Source: a virus. Taken from it: a stretch of 22,504 nt of DNA. Shown piece after piece: positions 606-20,270 of this stretch. Each line of letters starts with the position of its first letter. Within the stretch, counting starts at the first letter, position 1. The notes below the pieces were generated by a model. It was not told the DNA's origin, did not search any database, and saw nothing but the letters and a program-made list of their open reading frames with translations. The DNA is taken from positions 1 to 22,504 of the IMG/VR virus record IMGVR_UViG_3300049783_000543. One strand, written 5' to 3'. The position numbers were made by a program, and so were the translations under genes.

Positions 606-2485
606 GATCCACTAATAACGGCAAGCTGTGCGTTTGACCAGCCGGGGGATGCAACGGGGCTGGCGTAGGGGCCGATTGAGAAGTGGCTGATGCGGACGGG
701 GGCGATGACGCCCCCGTCGTCGCCAAAGTGGACAGTCGTTATCCCCGTTGGTTCTGTGCCGCTCAGGTCTGCTATAACCGTTGCGCCGTCCCAACTACAT
801 GAAAAGTCGTCTTCTACCCACCGAAACGCGACCCTTGAGATCACGCCCGTCGCAACCGCTGTGGTAAGCACAGCCGCAGTGCTGCCCGCGCTTTTTACTT
901 GAATCCGATAGGAGTTGATACTTTCCTGACACTGCACTCTGACAAGATTATCACTTGTATCGCCGCCTAGCAAAACAAGATGTCCGAAAGCACTCCCGCC
1001 CGTTTCATAATCAATCGACCCCTCGAACACGAGCGACCCACTGCCTTGGATAAAGCCGGGGATGCTGTCCGCGATAACGCACGACGCCTCGTCTTTGGCC
1101 CGTGCTTCGGATGAAGCCTTGGCGGGGATGACCGAAGTAAATGTGTGGTATGCCTCAATCTGTGCAAAAGCGACATAGAACTGATCGCCCGTTGTTTCGC
1201 CGCCCCCAATGTGGCCCCCAATGCGGAAACTGCAAGACGTTCCGGTGCCCGTTGTAAACGTAAACCAGACCAGAAACACCTCTGGTGAAATTTCTAAATA
1301 ACCGGAACTGTCCACGTCTGCATTGTTAGAAAAAGTCCTAGACGCAAAAATGAAATTGCACTGCGCATCAGGGTCTCCCGCGCCACCAGAGCAAAACGCC
1401 CGAAACCCGGCAATTTCACAATCTACGCTTGAAACAACAGCCCATGCACAGTGCTGGGTCGAAGCCGATAACGTGGCATTCATGGATATACGATCTGGCC
1501 CGAGCGACGACCCCACACCACCAACATCAATTAGCGACGCAGGTATGCCGAGGAGCGTTGTCGCGCCAGTTGTAACCGTGGTTGTGCCGTTTTCCGACCA
1601 GTTGCTAGACGAAATATCAGCGCCCACATTGTACGGCAGCAAGTCAGTGCCCGCAGGCTCGCCAAGTATTTGGCCGTCCACGGGAAGGCGGGAGTAATCC
1701 CGGCGCAGCGCGTAGCCCGCAGCCCCGGCGGTGGAGAGATAGTCGGTGCCGTCTTTGCTGTTGAGCTGCATTCCGCCGAGGTCGGAGCGGTAAGACCATG
1801 CTTTTGTCAGGTAGATGTCTTCGCCAACCACCGAGCTGTCGGGGCCAAACCCTGCACTGTGGTTAACCGCCCCGCCCGCGTCCATTGTTGCGACAACGGT
1901 TAGTCTATAGCTATTCCCGCCAAGGTCTTCGTTCGTTACTGTAATTTCGGTGGTCCCAGTTGTTGCGGAGACAGCCGCCGCGCCGACCGCGCCGTTTACA
2001 TTTAGGTTGACAGACGGCGAACCATCAAAAATTTGAAACCGCACACTTCCGCTAGTACCTGCTGTGTATTCAAAGTTCCAAGTATATTTCGCGCCGTCAA
2101 CAAGGTCTTCTGTAACGTTGCTTGCTCGGTCGCTGCCGCTTCCACCCGATTGCACCCGCAGGCCGTTAGCCGTATCAGTTAATGTTGCCGACCCTACTAG
2201 CGCCCACTCCGCAGTCGTCGGAATGCTCTCTGTAATAAAGTTATGCAGCCGCCACTTCAGCGCCCCGCCTTTGTCAATCACCGTTGCATTGCCAAGCGCA
2301 ACGCTGGTCATTAGCTCGGACAGATTGTTAGACACCTCCGGCCCGCTCGTCAGGTATTTGTTTTTCGGCGTGTCCATGACAAAATACGGGCGCACCGAGA
2401 ACTTGGTGAAGGCCGCAGTGCCAGTCTGCGACAATGCCCCGAATGGCGAGCGAAACCCGGCAACGGGCGTTTGCAGGTCACGCAT
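602..2485 (-). CDS. Tail fibre / receptor-binding-like structural protein
   Basis: The reading frame extends further upstream, but the ATG at 2485 (MRDLQTPVAG) overlaps the previous stop by 8 bases and is the likeliest start, giving 627 residues. The protein is rich in Ser, Thr, Gly and Ala with beta-sandwich-like patterns. A first sandwich-like region (roughly 90-200) carries WALVGSATLTDTANGLRV and TWNFEYTAG. A second (roughly 290-460) leads into AYHTFTSVIPAKASSEARA, resembling the 'TSYIPT...TRAAD' junction common in phage tail fibres. A third (SGSLVFEGSIDYE onwards) looks like a concanavalin/LamG-type fold. These fold calls come from sequence texture, not a search. The largest protein downstream of the tail tip is normally the fibre or receptor-binding protein. 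Confidence 0.7.
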   Translation of the reverse strand: MRDLQTPVAGFRSPFGALSQTGTAAFTKFSVRPYFVMDTPKNKYLTSGPEVSNNLSELMTSVALGNATVIDKGGALKWRLHNFITESIPTTAEWALVGSATLTDTANGLRVQSGGSGSDRASNVTEDLVDGAKYTWNFEYTAGTSGSVRFQIFDGSPSVNLNVNGAVGAAAVSATTGTTEITVTNEDLGGNSYRLTVVATMDAGGAVNHSAGFGPDSSVVGEDIYLTKAWSYRSDLGGMQLNSKDGTDYLSTAGAAGYALRRDYSRLPVDGQILGEPAGTDLLPYNVGADISSSNWSENGTTTVTTGATTLLGIPASLIDVGGVGSSLGPDRISMNATLSASTQHCAWAVVSSVDCEIAGFRAFCSGGAGDPDAQCNFIFASRTFSNNADVDSSGYLEISPEVFLVWFTFTTGTGTSCSFRIGGHIGGGETTGDQFYVAFAQIEAYHTFTSVIPAKASSEARAKDEASCVIADSIPGFIQGSGSLVFEGSIDYETGGSAFGHLVLLGGDTSDNLVRVQCQESINSYRIQVKSAGSTAAVLTTAVATGVISRVAFRWVEDDFSCSWDGATVIADLSGTEPTGITTVHFGDDGGVIAPVRISHFSIGPYASPVASPGWSNAQLAVISGS

Positions 2486-2765
2486 GGCTAATAAAGACTT
2501 GCCCGCCGCTGGGCGCATAGGCAAACAACCGAACAGGTGTAGTGACGCCGGGAAACAAGTCGGCAATCGCTACGCTTGAGCGCTCGCCTGCGCCGGGGTT
2601 GTACCGAATCGCGCCTAACGTGTTTGTAGGCTCTGTTGCATCAGCCGTGCCAGCAATAAAAACGGCGTTGCTGCCGTTGTTCTGGAATGTCGCTGCCAAA
2701 ATGTCGGTATCGGTTAGCAGCACCCAAGTGGCTGCTGCAACGTCTTTAGTGGTGTTCTGGGCCAT
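2478..2765 (-). CDS. Small tail-region protein, unknown function
   Basis: The start is taken as ATG 2765 (MAQNTTKDVA) because a strong GGAGG lies 8 bases upstream, giving 95 residues; the frame extends a few codons further without a better start. The protein is beta-rich, with TWVLLTDTDILAATFQNNGSNAVFIAGTA in the middle and a VFISHA end. The pattern (a quantity tested per 'NNGSNAVFI') resembles small phage structural proteins placed before the fibre gene, but I do not recognise a family. It is the first gene after a gap holding a candidate promoter (2801-2809), and its stop overlaps the fibre-like gene start by 8 bases. Confidence 0.75.
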   Translation of the reverse strand: MAQNTTKDVAAATWVLLTDTDILAATFQNNGSNAVFIAGTADATEPTNTLGAIRYNPGAGERSSVAIADLFPGVTTPVRLFAYAPSGGQVFISHA

Positions 2766-3441: not shown

Positions 3442-5190
3442 CTATGTGATCCTCGCGCTGTTCGTTCCGTCGCTTAGTAAGCCGCTTGCGTTGCCAATGT
3501 AAGCGCCGCTAAACGTGGCAGTCGTCGGGTCGTAATCCGCTGCGCCTGCCGCCAGTATCTTGAATATCTTGCCGTATAACGTCGTATCCTGAGCAACATA
3601 CTCCACAACCTCGCCGGGCACAATTTCTTCCGCGCTAACGATTGTCCAAAGGCTCAGAACCCGCACGCCGAATGCGTCCATATCAAGGTCAGTTGATAGC
3701 CGCACCGTGTCGCCGGTCCAATAGGCGCGGTCCTTAGCGTCCAGCCTGAATTTGGCCTCGCGCGGCACGTCAACATAACGGACCAGCAACTTGTTTGCTA
3801 ATGCTGGGGCCAAAGCGCTGCTAGGAATCCAGCCCGCGAAGATTGTGCGCACTGACTTTTCGCCGAATTGATTAGGCCCCTCGCTCGGCAAGTCCGCTGA
3901 TATGGCAGACGATTTCCAATTCTCGGTGTCATCTAGGCTTTCCGCTGGGTTGTCAATTTCATAATAGACCCAGACTTGAGACGTGCGATATTTGGGGAGA
4001 TCCACAATGGACAAAGACCCGTCAAGAATGTTTGCTTCTTCGGTCAGCGTGTTAGGCTCTTCATCAACACCCGTGATGACGCGGAGCTTAACTAGCGCGC
4101 TCCGCTCGTCCCACCAGATGTAGACGCTGGCCTGCTCTTGCACTTCGGACGCAAGTTGGTCAACTCCGGTTGGCTCAGTTATTAGACGGTTGAGCAATAA
4201 CGAAGGGGCGTAGTTATCAACCTCAGTCGCCCAGTTGGTCGTGTCGAGCTTGGCCGATGGGATGCCGCCGTATGTCTCTAGCAAGTCTTCTAGCACGTCA
4301 TCGACGCGCGCGTCTGTGTACCGCAAGCAAGCCTGCACCGCATCGCCCGCACTGCCCGTGGCTGCTGTGGTGCCGTCAGTCCCGCGCGCTACGGTTGAGA
4401 ACGTCACGCCGTTTGTGCTGTTTGCTCGGCTGGCGTAGGTCATAACCTCGCGCCCAATCCGCAACGTGCCGCTTGCAGCATAGTCGCTTTCCGTCGCGCC
4501 CGTCGCTTCAAAGCTGCTTGCGCTGTTGGTTATGTCCGCGAACAATTCGCCAGGCGATGCAAGTGGAGCCTTGGCTTTGCGCTCCTCAATCTTTGACAAG
4601 ATGTCCTTGCCCGTGATGCTGATATTGCCCTGCGAGTCCGGCCCGCTTAGGCCCGTCCAGATGTACTCCCGAACATTCATGGCGCTGAGCGCTTGGCCCG
4701 CGTAGCCCTCATATATTTTGAGCGTGATGTTCTGGCGGTATTTGTTGCGCGCCAACCATTTGACCCAGAAAGATCCGCGTTGGTATGCGTCCCATGACCG
4801 CCCATCAATGTATGGGTCAACAATCCTGTCAGTGTGCGGATGGTCTTTGAACCGGATAGTGCAAACCGCGCGATTGCCCAGCCCGCTTGCGTTGCTATCC
4901 GCTGAAGAAAGGTTGATCCGCGTCGGCAGCGTCGAGACTGACACAAGGGACGGGATGATGTAGGTTGCGCCTAAAACCTCTTGGTCCGCCACGTTCCCGC
5001 GACTGAAAAACAGGCTCAGCGTTGATGCGGTATAGTTTGGCGTGTCTTGGCAAGTCGTGAAAGTGTTGTAGCACTTCGCATCAGCCGCCCCGCTTGCCGT
5101 GCAAGGGCTAGACCCAAAGACGTTACCGCACGAAGGCTGCACAATCTCTACTATCAGGATGGGTTCCCGGCCTACCGTGTCCTTAGTCAT
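3442..5190 (-). CDS. Tail tip / tail hub protein with four-cysteine cluster
   Basis: This 582-residue protein follows the tape measure and a discoidin-like protein, the usual place of the tail hub. Near the N-terminus it has Cys21, Cys30, Cys40 and Cys47 (CGNVFGSSPC...KCYNTFTTCQDTPNY), spaced C-x8-C-x9-C-x6-C. This resembles a metal or Fe-S site; lambda gpL is a known Fe-S tail-tip protein with a similar outer spacing. The middle (about 170-330) includes GNISITGKDILSKIE and LRIGREVMTYASR, resembling hub beta domains. The C-terminal part includes REAKFRLDAKDRAYWTGDTVRLSTD, typical of baseplate-hub beta barrels. The start overlaps the previous gene by 8 bases. The hub role is confident from order; the metal site is inference. 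Confidence 0.8.
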   Translation of the reverse strand: MTKDTVGREPILIVEIVQPSCGNVFGSSPCTASGAADAKCYNTFTTCQDTPNYTASTLSLFFSRGNVADQEVLGATYIIPSLVSVSTLPTRINLSSADSNASGLGNRAVCTIRFKDHPHTDRIVDPYIDGRSWDAYQRGSFWVKWLARNKYRQNITLKIYEGYAGQALSAMNVREYIWTGLSGPDSQGNISITGKDILSKIEERKAKAPLASPGELFADITNSASSFEATGATESDYAASGTLRIGREVMTYASRANSTNGVTFSTVARGTDGTTAATGSAGDAVQACLRYTDARVDDVLEDLLETYGGIPSAKLDTTNWATEVDNYAPSLLLNRLITEPTGVDQLASEVQEQASVYIWWDERSALVKLRVITGVDEEPNTLTEEANILDGSLSIVDLPKYRTSQVWVYYEIDNPAESLDDTENWKSSAISADLPSEGPNQFGEKSVRTIFAGWIPSSALAPALANKLLVRYVDVPREAKFRLDAKDRAYWTGDTVRLSTDLDMDAFGVRVLSLWTIVSAEEIVPGEVVEYVAQDTTLYGKIFKILAAGAADYDPTTATFSGAYIGNASGLLSDGTNSARIT

Positions 5191-12431: not shown

Positions 12432-13151
12432 TTACGCAAGGCTGTTCGGATGCTTGCTGTGGTCATACCGCGCTTCGACTTCCGCAGCGCTCGGCAGGTC
12501 GCACGGCTCAAGCTCCACGCTGTATCCGGCTTCGTCGCGGCCCACTGACACCGTAAAGCCGTCATAGCCATAGAAGACGCCTTGCAGGCCCTCGCACGAG
12601 TCCAATAACGACGTATTAGTCGGCAGGGCCAAGTGCATCCCCTGAGCCTTGCCTAGCGCGATCCAGTATTCAAGGCAGGCCCGCCCGCGCTCGGCAAGGT
12701 GCGAATTTGCATAGGTATAATCGCACCCGAACAAGCTGACCTGCCGAGCGCCGCCCCAGACAGCTAGGGCCATTGCATAGGCCACAGTGCTGTTGAAATA
12801 GTAGTGCCCAGTATCCCGCACCACATCAGCAAGCGGAAACGCCACAAGGCCGGGGAAGCGCGGATCTGCATAGCTGGTGACGACGGGGCCATGGTGAACC
12901 TTCAGCCATTCCACCATCGCCGCGACGTTGCTATGGGGCCGGTCATCCGCGCGGGCCTCCTGTACTCGGATATCGTCCATATGAAACACGCGGTCGCATT
13001 GAAACACGTTGCCAAGCGCATTAACCGCCCAAACCTCGTCGCAATATGCAGACGCGCCGCCCAGCTTCTTGACGTGATTGGTGTATGCGTCAACCGATGG
13101 GCCAAGCCCTAAGATGGTGACGTGCTGGCCCTTCAGGAAGCCCTTGTTCAT
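12432..13151 (-). CDS. DUF115/MptE-like Rossmann-fold protein, cargo gene
   Basis: Start chosen at ATG 13151 behind GGAGAG; 239 residues. The N-terminus HVTILGLGPSVDAY (10-23) is a nucleotide-binding-type loop like the 'GNGPSL' loop of DUF115 (MptE-like) and GT42 sialyltransferase-type proteins. Further matches are DEVWAVNALGNVF, CDRVFHMDD, and FNSTVAYAMALAVWGGARQVSLFGCDYTYAN, the last a helix-strand unit ending in 'lfGcDy'. Family assignment is from motif memory and not certain. It could be a transferase acting on a glycan or small molecule. It is not a usual morphogenesis gene and lies with two other accessory genes between the decoration and connector genes. Confidence 0.8.
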   Translation of the reverse strand: MNKGFLKGQHVTILGLGPSVDAYTNHVKKLGGASAYCDEVWAVNALGNVFQCDRVFHMDDIRVQEARADDRPHSNVAAMVEWLKVHHGPVVTSYADPRFPGLVAFPLADVVRDTGHYYFNSTVAYAMALAVWGGARQVSLFGCDYTYANSHLAERGRACLEYWIALGKAQGMHLALPTNTSLLDSCEGLQGVFYGYDGFTVSVGRDEAGYSVELEPCDLPSAAEVEARYDHSKHPNSLA

Positions 13152-13153
13152 CT

Positions 13154-13480
13154 TCACTCTCCTTTGGCGCTTGTCGCAGCGTCTATCTGTTCAGCCGCCG
13201 CGCGTAATGCTTTAGAAATTGCTCGCGCCTCGTCTACAAGCCATTCGTCGCCAATAACTGCGGCTTTAACGCCGAATACAACATCTTGCACCAAACCGGC
13301 GACCTTGAAACCCAACTTGTCGCCGTCTTCGTTCGATGCCCGGAAACACACTTGGCCTTCTTGAACTGTCAGCCTTCCCAAAAGGCCACCTAAACGGCCA
13401 GCGATTTCGTCTTCTACTGCGCTCTCCATAGCCTTGCGTGCTGCGGCAAATGCCTCGTCAAGATCTGGGTACTTATCCAT
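13154..13480 (-). CDS. Accessory protein, unknown function
   Basis: Start chosen at ATG 13480 (MDKYPDLDEA), 5 bases behind GGGAGAG; 108 residues. A helical N-terminus (LDEAFAAARKAMESAVEDEIAGRLGGLLGRL), a short central beta part (VQEGQVCFRASNEDGDKLGFKVAGLVQDVVFGVKAAVIGDEW) and a C-terminal helix (VDEARAISKALRAAAEQIDAATSA) are visible. I do not recognise a family. It is acidic and lacks signal or membrane segments. The codons GGA GAG TGA at its end double as the Shine-Dalgarno of the next gene. It forms part of the three-gene cassette after the decoration gene. Confidence 0.72.
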   Translation of the reverse strand: MDKYPDLDEAFAAARKAMESAVEDEIAGRLGGLLGRLTVQEGQVCFRASNEDGDKLGFKVAGLVQDVVFGVKAAVIGDEWLVDEARAISKALRAAAEQIDAATSAKGE

Positions 13481-14249: not shown

Positions 14250-14286
14250 ATTGGGGCGGCAGGATCACCGCCCCAATTTATTTAGG
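14250..14286 (+). terminator. Strong hairpin with T-rich tail on plus strand
   Basis: ATTGGGGCGG (14250-14259) and CCGCCCCAAT (14268-14277) form a perfect 10-base-pair stem with an 8-base loop. On the plus strand TTATTTAGG follows, as in an intrinsic terminator for rightward transcripts. On the minus strand the hairpin sits just after the capsid gene stop but has no T-tract, so there it may instead protect or process the capsid mRNA. Confidence 0.45.
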
Positions 14287-15583
14287 CCGAAAGCTTGAGG
14301 ATCTTGATCGCCTCAAAGTTAACCACATCGCCGCCGACCCGCTTTGTCGAATAGAACTCGACATAAGGCTTGGCAGAGTACGGGTCACGCAGTGTGCGAA
14401 TGCCCATGCGGTCAACAATCTGGTAGGCCGCGCGCATGTCACCGACAGCGATGGAAAGCGAACCAGTTGCCGGGTCTGGCATGTCCTCAAACGATGCAAC
14501 AGGATAGCCGAGCAATGTTGCAGGCTGGCCCGCTGCAATGCCTGGTGCCCAAAGGTAGGCTCCGTCGCTGTCTTTGGTCTGGCGCACAATCTTAGACGTG
14601 CCCCTATTCATGAACCAGCTTGCGTTTGCCCGATACTGAGCCTTGAGGTCATACAGCGCCCCGATAAGTGCATCACCGCCAGCAGGTGCCGAAGCAAGCG
14701 CGCCGTTTGCGCCTGAGTTGGTCTGGTCGATGGTGCCCGGAAGTGTGGTGCCGTCTGCATAGGTGAGGAAGCCGCGTGGCTTGCCAACACCGTCGCCAGT
14801 GACGAACGCAGCATTTTCCAAGCGCATGAACCGGTCAGCAATCTTGCCCGCCAGCCATTGTTCGATGTTGATTTCGGCATCGTCCAGCAATTTCTGGGTT
14901 GCCAAAGGCTTGCCATACATCTCATGCACTGGGATGCGCCAAGCGCCAAGATCCGGCGTGGTGGTCGATGGTCGCGCCGCAGTCTCAGCAACCCAGCCCG
15001 CGCCAGCTTCGTTCAGGTCAAACAGGCCTTCCAAGGCGTCGGTCGAGATAACCTGCACAGACGCGTAGGCGCGCATGGGCGAAGTCTCAAAGACCTGCTT
15101 GACGATTTGGCCGGACATGTCCGGGTGAACAACATAGCCGCCGGTTGGGTCGCCGCCGACAGAAAGCGTTTTGCGCTCGATATCGGTCAAGCTTCCCTCG
15201 CCCTTGCGCAGATAGGCTTCCTGCGCGGCTTTGAACGCCTCAAGCTCTTCACCTTTTACCGTGCCGTGCATTGGGCGGTTGGTGAAGCTGGTAGCCGCGC
15301 GCTCAAACTGGCGGGCCTTTTGCTCAAGCATCGCGTCAATGTCCACAGCGTTGCCGTTTTCGTCGGTCACAACGCGATTTGAACGCTTGGATGCAAGGAC
15401 AGCTTCGTCCGCAACCTTTTGCATCGCGTCCATTTTTGCCTCAATCTTGGCAATCTTGTCAACGGTCAGCGGATCGGCAACGCCCTTTGTTTCGATCTCA
15501 ACAATCCGGGCATCGTTTGCGGCCTTGAACTCTTCAAACGCCTTGTTGACGCCGGTAATTGCGTCTTTGATTTCGTCAGCCAT
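14282..15583 (-). CDS. Major capsid protein, HK97 fold
   Basis: This 433-residue protein has the HK97 major capsid layout. Residues 1-130 are a helical, coiled-coil-like scaffolding (delta) region (MADEIKDAITGVNKAFEEFK; DAMLEQKARQFER). TLSVGGDPTGGYVVHPD (139-155) is the typical junction before the mature N-arm. The E-loop lies about 180-230, the spine helix at 231-257 (LLDDAEINIEQWLAGKIADRF), GDGVGKPRGFL at 263-273, and the A-domain at about 300-395. RVGGDVVNFEAIKILKLSA forms the C-terminal strand. The ATG at 15583 overlaps the protease gene by 8 bases, behind AGGAGA. It assembles the prohead and expands on DNA packaging. It is the parent-like relative of the mini-capsid gene at 16356. Confidence 0.97.
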   Translation of the reverse strand: MADEIKDAITGVNKAFEEFKAANDARIVEIETKGVADPLTVDKIAKIEAKMDAMQKVADEAVLASKRSNRVVTDENGNAVDIDAMLEQKARQFERAATSFTNRPMHGTVKGEELEAFKAAQEAYLRKGEGSLTDIERKTLSVGGDPTGGYVVHPDMSGQIVKQVFETSPMRAYASVQVISTDALEGLFDLNEAGAGWVAETAARPSTTTPDLGAWRIPVHEMYGKPLATQKLLDDAEINIEQWLAGKIADRFMRLENAAFVTGDGVGKPRGFLTYADGTTLPGTIDQTNSGANGALASAPAGGDALIGALYDLKAQYRANASWFMNRGTSKIVRQTKDSDGAYLWAPGIAAGQPATLLGYPVASFEDMPDPATGSLSIAVGDMRAAYQIVDRMGIRTLRDPYSAKPYVEFYSTKRVGGDVVNFEAIKILKLSA

Positions 15584-16223
15584 TGGTCATGTTCTCCTGT
15601 AGCTGGTTCAACATTGCTAGAAGGTCGTCAAGACCCTCCGTTTCTGTCTCGTCCTCTACAGCATCCCGCTGATCGGCTAGACCTTTGAAGCCGTGCGCCG
15701 CCGCAGCGGTGGCCTCCGCTTTAGATAGCCCTGCATCCCGCAAGAACTTTTCAAACTGTCGTATCGTCTGGACGCTCTTTACGTCCGTAACCTTGGCGGC
15801 GTCCAGCATTGGGAACGTCACTAGGCTAATCTCGTAAAGGTCAATCTCGTCCAGTTGGCGGATTGATCCGTTGCCTTGTTCGGAAGCTGCTTTGACAGAA
15901 TAGCCAATCGACATGCTGTCAAGCGCGCCGGCCCTAAGCAAAGCCATCGCCTCGCGGCCCTGCTGTACATCCTTCAGGATGCGGCCCTTAACGCGCAAGC
16001 CTCGCTCATCCTCTGCAATTTCGTCCCATACGCCAATGACCTTAGTGGTGTCGTGCTGCCAAAGCATCTTCACCTTGCGACTGCCGAGGGACTTCATAAA
16101 CGCGCCGCGTGCGACCACATCCATTCCGTTGTCGACCACGTTGAACACAGACGCGTAGCCCTCGAACAGGCCGTCCTCGTCCGGTAGCTTCTTTAGTTCA
16201 AACGTCGCGGCTTTGTACTGCAT
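15576..16223 (-). CDS. Prohead protease, HK97 gp4 / peptidase S78 family
   Basis: This 215-residue protein shows the herpes/HK97-type protease layout. FEGYASVFNVVDNGMDVVARGAF (20-42) forms the first strands. Catalytic His57 lies in LWQHDTTKVIGVWDEI, and catalytic Ser105 in GALDSMSIGYSV. EIDLYEISLVTFPMLDAAKV (126-145) follows. The C-terminal tail (about 160-215) is helical with LSKAEATAAAAHGFKGL. It cleaves the scaffolding region of the capsid protein inside the prohead. The gene precedes the capsid gene and begins a possible transcription unit behind a TGTTATAAG element. The Shine-Dalgarno (AAGGCAGG) is modest. Confidence 0.95.
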   Translation of the reverse strand: MQYKAATFELKKLPDEDGLFEGYASVFNVVDNGMDVVARGAFMKSLGSRKVKMLWQHDTTKVIGVWDEIAEDERGLRVKGRILKDVQQGREAMALLRAGALDSMSIGYSVKAASEQGNGSIRQLDEIDLYEISLVTFPMLDAAKVTDVKSVQTIRQFEKFLRDAGLSKAEATAAAAHGFKGLADQRDAVEDETETEGLDDLLAMLNQLQENMTNG

Positions 16224-16355
16224 GGACCTGCCTTAGCTAGAATTTGCAACCTTATAACACAGCGCTGCAAAGTTGCAAAGTGTGGGGGTGCATTAGCGCT
16301 TGCACAAGGCGTCGGGGGTTGGTAGGTGTTGTGGGTGCAACTGAAAGGAGCCGAC
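16224..16355. promoter_or_regulatory. Divergent intergenic region with TTGCAA repeats
   Basis: This gap separates the minus-strand protease gene from the plus-strand mini-capsid gene. It holds a perfect inverted repeat TTTGCAAC (16243-16250) and GTTGCAAA (16272-16279), plus tandem TGCAAAGT units at 16266-16273 and 16274-16281. The repeats flank the -10 and cover the -35 of the candidate protease promoter, which is where an operator would lie. I found no convincing promoter for the plus-strand gene. Confidence 0.5.
16251..16278 (-). promoter_or_regulatory. Candidate promoter for protease-capsid genes
   Basis: On the minus strand TTGCAA (16278-16273), a 16-base spacer and TATAAG (16256-16251) preceded by TGT form an extended -10 promoter. 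The -10 ends 28 bases before ATG 16223. The motif TGnTATAAG also occurs in the gaps before the connector and distal tail genes. The -35 hexamer lies inside the tandem TGCAAAGT repeats. Confidence 0.5.
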
Positions 16356-16973
16356 ATGTCTCAAATGATGAATCTAGCGCGGGTTACTGAGTGCGAAGGC
16401 TTATCGCTTACCGTTCTCAAGTCGGGGCTTGCCGGGGCCATTCCGACACGAACCGACATCCCCCTTAATGCATATATGCTAGGATATCCGACTAGGCCCG
16501 TTGAATATCACGGTCCAGAACTGGACGCCTCGTTTATAAACGGCAACGGCCACGACAAGCCGACCGGGATTTTGCAATATGTTGGACGCGGCATAGAAGC
16601 GTTGCCGAACACAGGCGATCCTGTTGAAGACTTGATTAACTTGATCTATGCCCTAGCGTCAGAACATCGCGCGCGAGGCGCTTTTATAATGGGCCGCGAA
16701 ACGTTGCGCGTAGTTAGGAAGCAGACGGATAGAGACGGGCGGTATATCTGGAGGTCCGGCCTTGCTGTTGGCGACCCTGACCGGCTTCTAGGCTTTCCCT
16801 TGATATGCATTGACGCCATGCCTGAACCTAACGAAGGCAAGCCGTCAATCCTGTTTGGTGACTTTGACGCGGGCTACACCATAGCGCGCGGGCCATACAA
16901 AGAGGGCCAAGAATCCATCAAGATGGGCGGACACGTGACGAACCCCAAAGCAATCAAGGCCCTGTTGGTCTAA
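16356..16973 (+). CDS. Miniature HK97-fold capsid-like protein, antisense to late operon
   Basis: Start chosen at ATG 16356, five bases behind GAAAGGAG; 205 residues with no frame damage. Residues 58-75 (ASFINGNGHDKPTGILQY) align with the phage's capsid protein at 258-275. Residues 93-183 align without gaps to capsid 306-396, by eye a little over a third identical (DGxYxW, LLGxP, MPxP, GD at matching places). Residues 189-205 match the capsid C-terminus (GGxVxNxxAIK). Compared with the capsid protein it lacks the N-terminal scaffold region, the spine helix (231-257) and about 14 P-domain residues (397-410), and the E-loop is shortened. At least four Arg codons are AGG/AGA, unlike those I checked in the capsid gene. 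Its stop overlaps the convergent MuF-like gene by 3-4 bases. Possible roles: capsid assembly interference, superinfection exclusion, or decoy. Function is unknown. Confidence 0.88.
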   Translation: MSQMMNLARVTECEGLSLTVLKSGLAGAIPTRTDIPLNAYMLGYPTRPVEYHGPELDASFINGNGHDKPTGILQYVGRGIEALPNTGDPVEDLINLIYALASEHRARGAFIMGRETLRVVRKQTDRDGRYIWRSGLAVGDPDRLLGFPLICIDAMPEPNEGKPSILFGDFDAGYTIARGPYKEGQESIKMGGHVTNPKAIKALLV

Positions 16974-17773
16974 AACCCGTCATCAACAATATGCGCCACG
17001 GCACAGCGGCAGTTAATGACCGCGCTGGCTGGCAAGTCAGGGTGCCCCGGAAACATGGCCTGGATGGTGGTGCCGTCCCTTTTGGGCATGGCAAACGGCT
17101 GGTCCATGTCAACGGTCTGCCCGTTCATTGATAGGTGGCCAAACTCGTCACCATCGCCAATCCGCCGCGTACGCAGGTCCACAGCACTCAGCCATTCCTT
17201 GCGCATTGTCAGCCCGGTTGATCGAGCCGCCGCGTCTGCACCCGCGTTGGCTGCGCCGTGTGTCTCGGTGCGCGCAATTAGACGCCCGCGCCCGCGTGAT
17301 ATGCTGCCGGTGTTGTCTGCAATGCCCTTGGCGATTTCGTTAATGCCTAGGCCGTCCTCCTGCCCGCGCGTGATTTGCCGCACAATCTGCGAGCGCGTCG
17401 TCTCAGCTATCAAGGTGATGCGCCGGCGGATTGCCTCACCTTGGATGTACTCTAGGGCGATGCGCCGGAAGAACTCGGCAAAGCCCTTTGTCTCAAGCAC
17501 CAGCCCGCGCGCCTTGCCCTGGTCAACAATGCGCCCGCCAAATGTGGCGACGGCTGTTGACGCCAAGCCCTCAAATATCTGCGCAAGGGTCTGTTGATGG
17601 TCGAGGGGTAGCGCTGGGGCCGATCCCGTCGCCTCATACTCAGCAAGCATGGCGCGCGTTGCCCTGCCAATCTCAGACGCAAAGCGCACCGAGAAACGGC
17701 GGTCCATTAGCTTAAGCAGCCTCATTTGCATACGACGCTCGCGCGCAGGGGATAGGCCGGTTAGGCGGCGCAT
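16970..17773 (-). CDS. Head morphogenesis protein, SPP1 gp7 / Mu F-like
   Basis: This 267-residue protein begins two bases after the portal stop. The N-terminal half is helical (about 1-150). The Mu F/SPP1 gp7 domain follows: RLIARTETHGAANAGADAAAR (164-184), KEWLSAVDLRTR (192-203), HLSMNGQTVDMDQPF (213-227), FPGHPDLPASAVINCRCAVAHI (241-262), with the conserved 'NCRC' pattern. The family is a minor head protein associated with the portal and injected with or bound to DNA. Gene order portal-MuF-protease-capsid is standard; here the antisense mini-capsid gene is placed between this gene and the protease. Confidence 0.92.
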   Translation of the reverse strand: MRRLTGLSPARERRMQMRLLKLMDRRFSVRFASEIGRATRAMLAEYEATGSAPALPLDHQQTLAQIFEGLASTAVATFGGRIVDQGKARGLVLETKGFAEFFRRIALEYIQGEAIRRRITLIAETTRSQIVRQITRGQEDGLGINEIAKGIADNTGSISRGRGRLIARTETHGAANAGADAAARSTGLTMRKEWLSAVDLRTRRIGDGDEFGHLSMNGQTVDMDQPFAMPKRDGTTIQAMFPGHPDLPASAVINCRCAVAHIVDDGF

Positions 17774-17775
17774 AT

Positions 17776-19047
17776 CTAAGCCTCGTATCCAGCCGCGCGG
17801 ATTAGCGCCTTTAGCTCAGGCTCGGACATTTCAGGCTCGGACCCAAGCCCTGCCGATGCCTCGCCCAAGGGGATCTGCATTGATGGCACCAGCAGCACGT
17901 CGCCGCCATCGATCGGGGGGTATCCCATCGCCTCGCGCTTTTCGTTCACGGTCAAGCTGTTCGTCGCCTCGGTCATCTCCCACAGCTTGGCGCGGCGATC
18001 CACAATAGCGGGGATCTTCTCAAGGTCGGGGCGCAACTCTAGCCCATTGCCCAGCTTGCGGCTTAGGTCGCCAGCGATCAAGCCTAGCAACGGCAGCACG
18101 GTATCCTCCCAGAACGACAAGCGCGCCTCGGAATAGTTGGAATACGTGTTATCGCCGGGGATGCCCAGCAACTGCGGAGGAACGCCCCAAGCAAGGCAGA
18201 TGTCGCGCGCCGATGCGTTCTTGCTGTCGATGATGCCCATGTCCGTTGGGCTAAGGCCCATCTGTTGCCACTTCATGCCGCCCTCTAGCAACATGGGGCG
18301 TCCTGCGTTCTGAGCGCCGGAATACTGGTCCTCGGTCTGCGCCTTGAGCCGCGCAAACTGCTCGTCTGACAGCTGCTCGTCACCCTCGACCACAAGCGCA
18401 CCAGACGGGCGCGCACTGTTCTGCAGTAGCGCTTGCATCCAGCCCATTGAGGCGTTGTGGACGTCAATAGAATAAGCCGCCGCTTCGGTTGGTGCCAGCC
18501 CGTACCAGTCATTTACCGGGTTGAACAACTTGAGGTGCTGGATATCAGACGCGCCGGTCTTTGGGTCGGCATCAAAGAACGTTTTCCGCCCGTTCACTTC
18601 ATAGCAATACTTGGCGGGGCGACCGTTGGCGCTCGGTATAATCTTCATCCGGTCAGGGCGTAGTGCATACATCTCGCGCACGTCGTCGCCCACGCTGATG
18701 GTCTCGCGGTATCCGTTGCCGCTAATCATCAGAAAGCCGACATACTCCATAAAGAACTGCTCGGATGTCTGAAACGGGTTAGGCGTGCGGACGAGATCCA
18801 GCATAGGCGCTTCGGTCACTTCAGTGTCACCGTTAAACGCGGTCCACTCAACTGAGGCGATGGACTCTGCAATCTTGTTTATCGCCTGATAGGCAACGAC
18901 GTTCTGCACATAGCCTTCCTTGGCGAAGGCGGAATAATCGCGCTTTGACCAGACGGGCTGACCCAGGCTAACAAGCTGCGTGTGCAGCCGGTGCGCCGCG
19001 CTTTCCTTCGTTTCGGCTGGTGCCCGGAACCTATCTAAAAAACCCAT
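17776..19047 (-). CDS. Portal protein, HK97 family
   Basis: Start chosen at ATG 19047 (MGFLDRFRAP), forming ATGA with the terminase stop and lying 7 bases behind AAGGG; an in-frame TTG one codon earlier is less likely. The 423-residue protein has portal hallmarks: VVAYQAINKIAESIASVEW near 50-68, TPNPFQTSEQFFMEYVGFLMISGNGY near 88-113, LRPDRMKI, LKLFNPVNDWYGLAP, ASARDICLAWGVPPQLLGIPGDNTYSNYSEARLSFWEDTVLPLL (about 277-320), and TVNEKREAMGYPPIDGGDVLLVP near 367-389. Twelve copies form the ring at the packaging vertex through which DNA enters and the connector attaches. Confidence 0.96.
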   Translation of the reverse strand: MGFLDRFRAPAETKESAAHRLHTQLVSLGQPVWSKRDYSAFAKEGYVQNVVAYQAINKIAESIASVEWTAFNGDTEVTEAPMLDLVRTPNPFQTSEQFFMEYVGFLMISGNGYRETISVGDDVREMYALRPDRMKIIPSANGRPAKYCYEVNGRKTFFDADPKTGASDIQHLKLFNPVNDWYGLAPTEAAAYSIDVHNASMGWMQALLQNSARPSGALVVEGDEQLSDEQFARLKAQTEDQYSGAQNAGRPMLLEGGMKWQQMGLSPTDMGIIDSKNASARDICLAWGVPPQLLGIPGDNTYSNYSEARLSFWEDTVLPLLGLIAGDLSRKLGNGLELRPDLEKIPAIVDRRAKLWEMTEATNSLTVNEKREAMGYPPIDGGDVLLVPSMQIPLGEASAGLGSEPEMSEPELKALIRAAGYEA

Positions 19048-20270
19048 CAAAGCGCCCTTATTCTCGGCTGACTGCGCCGTTTAATCATTGGCCCTATCGC
19101 ATAGCGCAAGGCGTCGATCCCGTGGTTGTGGTCGTCAACAATCTTGGACGTGATGTCCTCGGTGTTGCGGTCCACTTTGTAGCTATATAGCCGAAATTCG
19201 CGCGATATGCTAGGACAGCGCGGATGCACGTATATCTTGCCGTAGGATTTGAGGTGTTCGATACCGTCCTCAACCGACCCCGGCCACTTGTCGCACGACT
19301 GCGCGCGTGCCATCCCGTGCCGCTTTAGGTAGCTGATACTCTCAGGGCGGGCGTTGTCCCAGCGTGACACGTCATTGCTCCAGCCGGGTATTTTGCCCTC
19401 GACGAACGCCGCCGTGTCGTCAATCTCCAGTTTCTTCTTAAACGCCTCGTGTGAGACGTAAAGGTCGCCTTGATAGATCCAGCACTGGATAGCGGCAGTC
19501 GGATCTTGCGAGAAACCGAAGTCGCCGCCCTGAAACGGCCCATCCCATGCGTGGCTAGGCTCGAACTCCTTTTCCTCAACCTTGCCCGCGAATATCTGCG
19601 CATCTGTGCGAGTGAGGAACGCGCCCTCCCAAACGTGGTCGTAGGTGTCGGGCCGCAGCCGTTTATCGTCAAGCCGCTCCTGATTGAGAACCTCATTCCA
19701 CCACGGATTGTCCCGCCAGTTTAGCTCGGTGACGATGCAGCTTGTGGGGGTGTCCGCAATGAAGCGCTTATGCGTTGCGCTCTCGCTGCTTTCCGGGTTG
19801 TACGTTACCCAGTTTTCAGATCCATGTTCTCGGATGGTCGGCAGCAACTTGCGCCATGCGGCCTCAGACACTGCCTCCGCCTCGTCCGTCCAGTTGCGAA
19901 GAATGCGGGCTTTTGATTTGATGCTGTCAAGATTGTGGCGCAGCCCTGCAAACGCAAACGAGACGCGCCGGTCTGCTGTGCGTATATATCGCTCGCCTAT
20001 GTCAAAGTGCGGCAATAGGTCAGGCTCCGACCGTATAGATACCTTCAATTCTTCTAAGCTGGATTCGTCTAGGCTGTTGAGGTGTTCACGGCTACATAGG
20101 AAAATGCCCTCGGCACCGCCCTGAGCAAGCCGAAAGGCATCTACCCCCGCCATTTTAGCAACTCCCCTAGTTTTTCCTCCGCCTCGACCACCTTTAATTA
20201 TGCGGTGACGAGCGGGGCGCGAGAACAAATCAACTAGCTTAGGGGGAAGATCAATCCGAAGTGTTGTCAT
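19047..20270 (-). CDS. terL: Terminase large subunit (PBSX/Terminase_3-like)
   Basis: This 407-residue protein has an N-terminal ATPase and a C-terminal nuclease. The Walker A motif is KGGRGGGKT (26-34), the Walker B-like region is ILRNWTDEAE (123-132, Asp129/Glu130), and the coupling motif is WVTYNPES (154-161). Acidic nuclease residues are Asp250 (GGDFGFSQDP), Asp305 (RWDNARPES) and Asp386 (HGIDALRYA). The enzyme cuts concatemeric DNA and pumps it into the prohead through the portal. It overlaps the putative small terminase by 20 bases and ends in ATGA overlap with the portal gene. All motifs are intact. Confidence 0.96.
   Translation of the reverse strand: MTTLRIDLPPKLVDLFSRPARHRIIKGGRGGGKTRGVAKMAGVDAFRLAQGGAEGIFLCSREHLNSLDESSLEELKVSIRSEPDLLPHFDIGERYIRTADRRVSFAFAGLRHNLDSIKSKARILRNWTDEAEAVSEAAWRKLLPTIREHGSENWVTYNPESSESATHKRFIADTPTSCIVTELNWRDNPWWNEVLNQERLDDKRLRPDTYDHVWEGAFLTRTDAQIFAGKVEEKEFEPSHAWDGPFQGGDFGFSQDPTAAIQCWIYQGDLYVSHEAFKKKLEIDDTAAFVEGKIPGWSNDVSRWDNARPESISYLKRHGMARAQSCDKWPGSVEDGIEHLKSYGKIYVHPRCPSISREFRLYSYKVDRNTEDITSKIVDDHNHGIDALRYAIGPMIKRRSQPRIRAL

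Follow-up and report, generated by a model that had tools for sequence, protein, structure and literature searches.

The window (the whole stretch of DNA analysed) is a 22,504-base virus record that carries a phage head gene cluster on its minus strand, in the order terminase large subunit, portal, MuF-like gene, prohead protease and major capsid protein (MCP). Between the MuF-like gene and the protease, on the plus strand, lies a short gene related to the capsid gene and named here the mini-capsid. The features discussed below are the following:

3442-5190, minus strand: the phage's own tail protein, 582 aa
14282-15583, minus strand: the phage's own full-length MCP, 433 aa (PF05065 positions 1-279 of 280, E 6e-84)
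15576-16223, minus strand: prohead protease (Peptidase_S78 profile)
16243-16279, no strand assigned: inverted repeat TTTGCAAC..GTTGCAAA, together with a candidate promoter for the minus strand (TTGCAA-16-TATAAG); both precede the protease gene (sequence)
16291-16969, no strand assigned: accessory insert of 679 bp, with 25 bp in its place in contig L006 (blastn and flank comparison)
16344-16350, plus strand: Shine-Dalgarno sequence AAAGGAG, 5 nt ahead of the ATG; altered yet retained in contig L003 (GAAGGAGGAAGACATG)
16356-16973, plus strand: mini-capsid gene, 205 aa, a lone capsid axial (A) domain (open reading frame; PF05065; full-length orthologue in contigs L003 and L004)
16356-16523, plus strand: N-terminal stretch, codons 1-56, outside the MCP profile alignment
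16524-16886, plus strand: last part of the spine region (GxG motif), with the core of the A-domain, codons 57-177 (BLASTP and profile alignments, AF2 model, PDB matches)
16914-16970, plus strand: C-terminal P-domain strand (KMGGHVTNPKAIKALLV), codons 187-205 (alignments)
16970-17773, minus strand: MuF-like head morphogenesis gene (PF04233; profile and sequence)
17776-19050, minus strand: portal
19047-20270, minus strand: terminase large subunit

The mini-capsid frame opens with an ATG and contains no internal stop. The PF05065 (Phage_capsid) profile matched its residues 57-203 with an E value of 1.6e-30 and 106.9 bits, against a cut-off of 24.2, through profile positions 110-236 of 280 only, and TIGR01554 matched with an E value of 4.9e-34. 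BLASTP aligned the same residues with residues 257-429 of the phage's own MCP at 34% identity (95 bits, E 2e-27). The initial annotation, made from the sequence alone, had described an intact plus-strand gene of 205 residues akin to capsid, and had offered a profile search as a check able to disprove that relation; the relation found was strong. Its ungapped block, pairing residues 93-183 with capsid residues 306-396, was essentially right, and the Shine-Dalgarno sequence that it reported stands where expected. The observation of an intact, capsid-derived mini gene is confirmed, far beyond chance. No minus-strand ORF of at least 80 aa occurs within 16224-16969, so that the mini-capsid frame is not a shadow ORF.

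The AGG/AGA codons said to set the gene apart from the capsid gene do differ in number (AGA plus AGG 4 in the mini-capsid vs 1 in the MCP, with ATA 5 vs 0 and CTA 4 vs 0), but the difference in codon usage is mild overall, with GC3 values of 0.59 and 0.65, respectively. The stop codons of the mini-capsid and MuF-like genes overlap tail to tail. A consensus scan found no convincing plus-strand sigma-70-like promoter near the mini-capsid gene, and did not flag the candidate minus-strand promoter TTGCAA-16-TATAAG either. The inverted repeat overlaps this candidate promoter, and both are also found in the empty-site phage L006.

The matches of the mini-capsid extend over the turn that follows the spine helix, the A-domain and the final strand of the P-domain; the domain names are taken from what is generally known of the HK97 fold and from the papers on Ccm and RcGTA, rather than from coordinates. 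BLASTP, Pfam and the alignments revealed no counterpart of the N-arm/scaffold domain, the E-loop or the spine helix, and part of the MCP P-domain hairpin that precedes the C-terminal strand is absent, in agreement with the original description of a protein lacking the N-terminal scaffold region, the spine helix and part of the P-domain. The product has about half the MCP length and falls short of a complete HK97 fold; it is a stand-alone, optional protein and is not the shell-forming one, a full-length MCP being encoded at 14282-15583 and L006 existing with no mini gene at all.

Structure prediction of the 205-residue product alone, as had been suggested at the outset, gave a well-predicted A-domain (AF2 pLDDT mostly 84-94 for residues 71-170, pTM 0.71) and a pLDDT below 50 for residues 13-53. 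The best PDB matches by fold were those of the MCP of an RcGTA gene transfer agent (6tsu/6tb9, Foldseek E 1e-15), which is also the solved structure closest in sequence (90 bits). Because MCPs were part of the AF2 alignment, the agreement in fold does not count as evidence separate from that in sequence. An assignment of residues 1-56 to a P-domain strand plus the E-loop base looked plausible by eye and in MAFFT and was set aside, as neither profiles nor AF2 supported it.

The viral contigs L003 and L004 carry a full-length copy of the mini-capsid, 89% identical, at the same place. L006 lacks it: the 679 bp of the window are replaced there by 25 bp, both neighbouring genes are intact, and its MuF, protease and MCP proteins are 98-99% identical to those of the window. 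The mini-capsid is an accessory gene, absent from a near-identical phage with undamaged neighbours, as a moron would be, and the cargo status first proposed for it is upheld. In L003 and L004 a further plus-strand ORF, 59 aa long (L003 6558-6737), shares the slot; it has 54% identity over 48 residues (E 1e-16) to residues 101-148 of the window's tail protein. Judged by this match, the ORF is a second truncated structural gene carried as cargo, derived from the tail protein. The motif CTA(A/G)AACCC(G/A)TCGTC flanks this second cassette at both ends.

The space between the MuF and protease genes was surveyed in 120 distinct loci containing both genes, about 1.0 Mb in total. The gap measured at most 130 bp in 49 of the 120 loci and more than 250 bp in 59, a spread which argues that the slot is a cargo site. 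Complete short capsid-like ORFs occurred in three phage lineages among the 120 slots, every one inside the slot, which represents 5.4% of the surveyed sequence. The first lineage comprises the window, L003 and L004 (antisense, 205 aa); the second L009 and L010 (antisense, about 94 aa, A-domain core alone); and the third L125, with two copies in sense of 198 aa (mini1) and 130 aa (mini2). All four mini-capsid types, namely those of the window and of L009/L010 and both L125 copies, passed the PF05065 cut-off. The expectation that homologues might recur as stand-alone short proteins in the same antisense position held for the slot in all three lineages, but orientation varies, the L125 copies being in sense; and the homologues are intact ORFs, not the decayed fragments that would have spoken against a working gene.

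L010 has a run of four ORFs in antisense (1839-2698, minus strand), with overlapping stop and start codons: a 66-aa HTH-like ORF, ORFs of 75 and 51 aa, and the mini-capsid, which is the last of the four, reads into the MuF end and lacks the C-terminal strand. From the overlapping codons, the L010 mini-capsid is predicted to be translationally coupled to the ORFs upstream of it. A related HTH ORF heads the slots of L011 and L013, where the cargo is different and comprises, among others, a lipoprotein-like ORF of 104 aa. L125 has close relatives in L120, L123, L113 and L114, and in these the slot is empty. The MuF-like gene of L012 (203-1912) has an internal insertion of intein-like appearance, raising its length to 569 aa vs about 269, and the insertion contains a 258-aa antisense ORF with a weak nuclease-like Pfam match.

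Outside the slot group, phage MW202777 (L005) has a stand-alone capsid-like gene of 261 aa (3714-4499) among non-structural neighbours (alpA-like, SprT-like and endonuclease V genes), in addition to a normal MCP at 36934-38271. The 261-aa protein keeps the spine-helix region and lacks the N-terminal part and the E-loop. Among the phage and plasmid matches listed, those inspected were annotated MCPs with the exception of this protein. Cellular genome contigs searched with the window mini-capsid yielded no relative, and in 395 genomes of one host family searched with the mini profile, full-length MCPs dominate among the best matches listed.

The initial interpretation is supported in part. It regarded the mini-capsid as a miniature of the phage's own capsid protein, and this parentage is not established; capsid poisoning, exclusion and decoy action, which it also put forward, would be candidate functions. 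The closest sequences are RcGTA-type MCPs (115 bits and 38% identity, vs 95 bits and 34% for the own MCP), and mean identity is 35.5% to GTA-type and 30.9% to own-lineage MCPs. In an A-domain tree a branch of about 1.5 substitutions per site separates the window protein from every MCP; AU tests reject neither the own lineage (p 0.24) nor the GTA position (p 0.37), and the diagnostic sites are split, six own and five GTA. An own-capsid origin can no longer be taken for granted, since GTA MCPs score higher, but the own lineage is still compatible with the AU test; a GTA origin of the window gene is suggested by similarity only.

The mini1 copy of L125 has a clearer ancestry. Its A-domain is 58-67% identical to the MCPs of contigs L174-L252 and 42% identical to the MCP of its own phage. 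The identity of these contigs was checked on two of them, L174 and L185: the L174 MCP matches RcGTA Rcc01687 with 634 bits, and downstream in both contigs lie GTA-gp10, an Rcc01695-family distal tail protein and a GTA baseplate hub protein, so that both are RcGTA-type gene transfer agents. In the A-domain tree mini1 falls within the GTA clade (support 98/95), and the AU test rejects an own-lineage position (p 0.0003). By these comparisons mini1 is clearly derived from a GTA capsid. Aligned with a GTA MCP, it lacks in frame the spine-helix stretch between MCP residues 194 and 218, about 15 residues are gone from the P-domain hairpin near the C-terminus, and only MAFFT and some BLAST matches align its first 42 residues; its AF2 model has a pLDDT of 33. 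A different case is the GTA-like contig L330 (2998-3528), where a 177-aa frame, open only from the GxG motif, matches the C-terminal half of a GTA-type MCP and is perhaps a frameshifted GTA capsid gene.

The mini-capsids could be debris, that is, fragments of capsid and tail genes brought into a permissive slot by illegitimate recombination, short-lived and without function. The rarity of the copies, their absence from close relatives, the way the L010 copy runs into the MuF end and the presence of a tail-protein fragment in the slot would all be expected of debris, as would the dN/dS ratio of the window/L003 pair, 0.67 (25 nonsynonymous and 12 synonymous changes), which is indistinguishable from neutrality (p 0.18); neighbouring genes have ratios of roughly 0.03-0.1. 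Against debris, every copy is open and has a start codon, mostly with a Shine-Dalgarno sequence, and the L010 copy shows signs of translational coupling. The internal losses of mini1 preserve the reading frame and leave the A-domain untouched, and its comparison with the nearest GTA MCP, where third-position changes dominate, gave a dN of 0.295, a dS of about 1.5 (NG86) and thus a dN/dS of about 0.2, indicating that this copy is under purifying selection. The window protein, moreover, has kept its capsid core and an open frame despite its long branch. The mini-capsid is, as far as sequences can tell, more likely functional than debris, the window copy alone being no proof, and we consider the debris explanation somewhat unlikely.

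The explanation that we tentatively prefer, as a possibility, is interference with assembly by a moron cassette, inserted between the MuF-like gene and the prohead protease of the head operon, whose product would join or block the capsomers of rival particles, either phages or GTAs. The A-domain alone could still reach the capsomer centre, and with the N-arm/scaffold domain, the E-loop and the spine helix lost, such subunits could not be linked into a shell. We infer that the protein is made from its own strand in the lysogen, or early in infection. It would then join or cap the capsomers of some other HK97-fold particle competing with the phage, whether a second phage or the RcGTA-type gene transfer agent of the host, and so stall assembly. 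During late growth of the phage itself, transcription of the head operon from the opposite strand would lower the amount of mini-capsid. The sense copies of L125 would have no such antisense brake, which would fit a GTA-directed target, at least for the GTA-derived mini1.

In favour of this explanation are the intact frame with its Shine-Dalgarno sequence, the presence or absence of the cassette among near-identical phages, the recurrence in one slot, the antisense ORF run of L010, the low dN/dS of mini1 and the second truncated structural gene of L003 and L004. Capsomer poisoning also has points against it: the dN/dS of the window/L003 pair is not significantly below 1, the scan gave no convincing plus-strand promoter, and only three lineages among the 120 slots carry a mini-capsid. 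HK97-type subunits contact one another through the N-arm, the E-loop and the P-domain; these contact elements are absent from the mini-capsid, so that binding to capsomers is not assured. Moreover, own and GTA capsids are both compatible as parent of the window gene, and its likely target could accordingly be either. A wider proposal would be that phages of Rhodobacterales-type hosts load truncated virion proteins, including the axial domain of the host's GTA capsid, into a head-operon slot as dominant-negative inhibitors of GTA or rival-phage assembly, the mini-capsids forming a capsid-derived, spineless poison family; this we regard as unlikely.

A narrower form of the interference explanation, in which the mini-capsid is a specific antagonist of the host's RcGTA-type GTA, is quite unlikely. 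It would account for the nesting of mini1 among GTA MCPs, with about 65% identity as opposed to 42% to its own MCP. An own-lineage MCP was also found in a Rhodobacteraceae MAG, and profile matches inside full-length MCP frames are common in this family. Against it stand the AU test and the diagnostic sites of the window gene, which do not single out a GTA parent.

Decidedly doubtful is a role as immune decoy, in which the A-domain, together with the tail fragment in L003 and L004, would occupy capsid and tail sensors without triggering them and so shield the phage. As a precedent, one host immune system is known that a viral capsid protein activates directly (PMC9712102). A slot holding fragments of two virion proteins suits decoys at least as well as a capsid poison. 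On the other hand, PADLOC gave no match among the cassette genes tested, there is no indication of a host sensor that reads the A-domain alone, and a gene placed antisense within the late operon would yield less decoy at the very time when capsid appears. Finally, a minor constituent of the phage's own virion, or a helper in its assembly, for instance a special capsomer component, is highly improbable, since in spite of its place beside the protease and MCP genes and the two sense copies within the L125 head operon, the gene is missing from near-identical phages, is antisense in two of three lineages and, in mini1, stems from a GTA capsid and not from that of its own phage.

Compared with HK97-type MCPs (PF05065/TIGR01554, including the phage's own), the mini-capsid shares the A-domain and the C-terminal strand, but it is about half as long, lacks key assembly elements and is an optional stand-alone gene. 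The RcGTA MCP Rcc01687, the best solved relative of the window protein and a member of the parent group of mini1, is a shell-building protein of 398 aa with a full HK97 fold (PMC7296036; PDB 6tb9, 6tba, 6tsu), whereas the mini-capsids lack the N-arm, E-loop and spine helix. Ccm of SaPIbov5 is a capsid homologue that occupies the pentamers of the helper capsid and redirects the size of the phi12 capsid (PMC8569155, PDB 7rwz). Like the mini-capsid it is encoded in addition to the true MCP, and it acts on phage capsid assembly from another element; however, Ccm is satellite-encoded and has a complete HK97 fold with N-arm, E-loop and spine helix, whereas the mini-capsid lacks the spine helix and the N-terminal half. 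Tab, the tail assembly blocker of Pseudomonas phage JBD26, is a constitutive prophage moron of the late operon that blocks virion assembly, and anti-Tab holds it back during growth of its own phage (PMC10884400). The mini-capsid would parallel Tab as a small accessory gene in a late/head cluster, modelled as a lysogen-expressed assembly inhibitor with a lytic brake; Tab, however, has no resemblance to known proteins, acts on the tape measure protein and is kept in check by a protein.

A lone axial domain, its recurrence in one slot and a copy from a GTA capsid are unusual among known element-encoded capsid homologues and assembly blockers, and no direct precedent for truncated-capsid interference in phages was found in the literature searched. 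If the proposed role is true, it would represent phage capsid-derived interference by a protein cut down to one capsid domain, and a phage gene built from a GTA capsid would link phages and GTAs directly. Whether an isolated HK97 axial domain can poison capsid assembly, and whether phages use it against GTAs, has thereby become a testable question. The recurring slot is a place to seek small anti-assembly genes that annotation names truncated major capsid proteins.

Elsewhere among the structural genes of the window, a 241-aa protein is encoded at 12432-13157 on the minus strand. Pfam and PADLOC gave no match for it; it begins with a Rossmann-like stretch (TILGLGPSVD) and may be another cargo gene.
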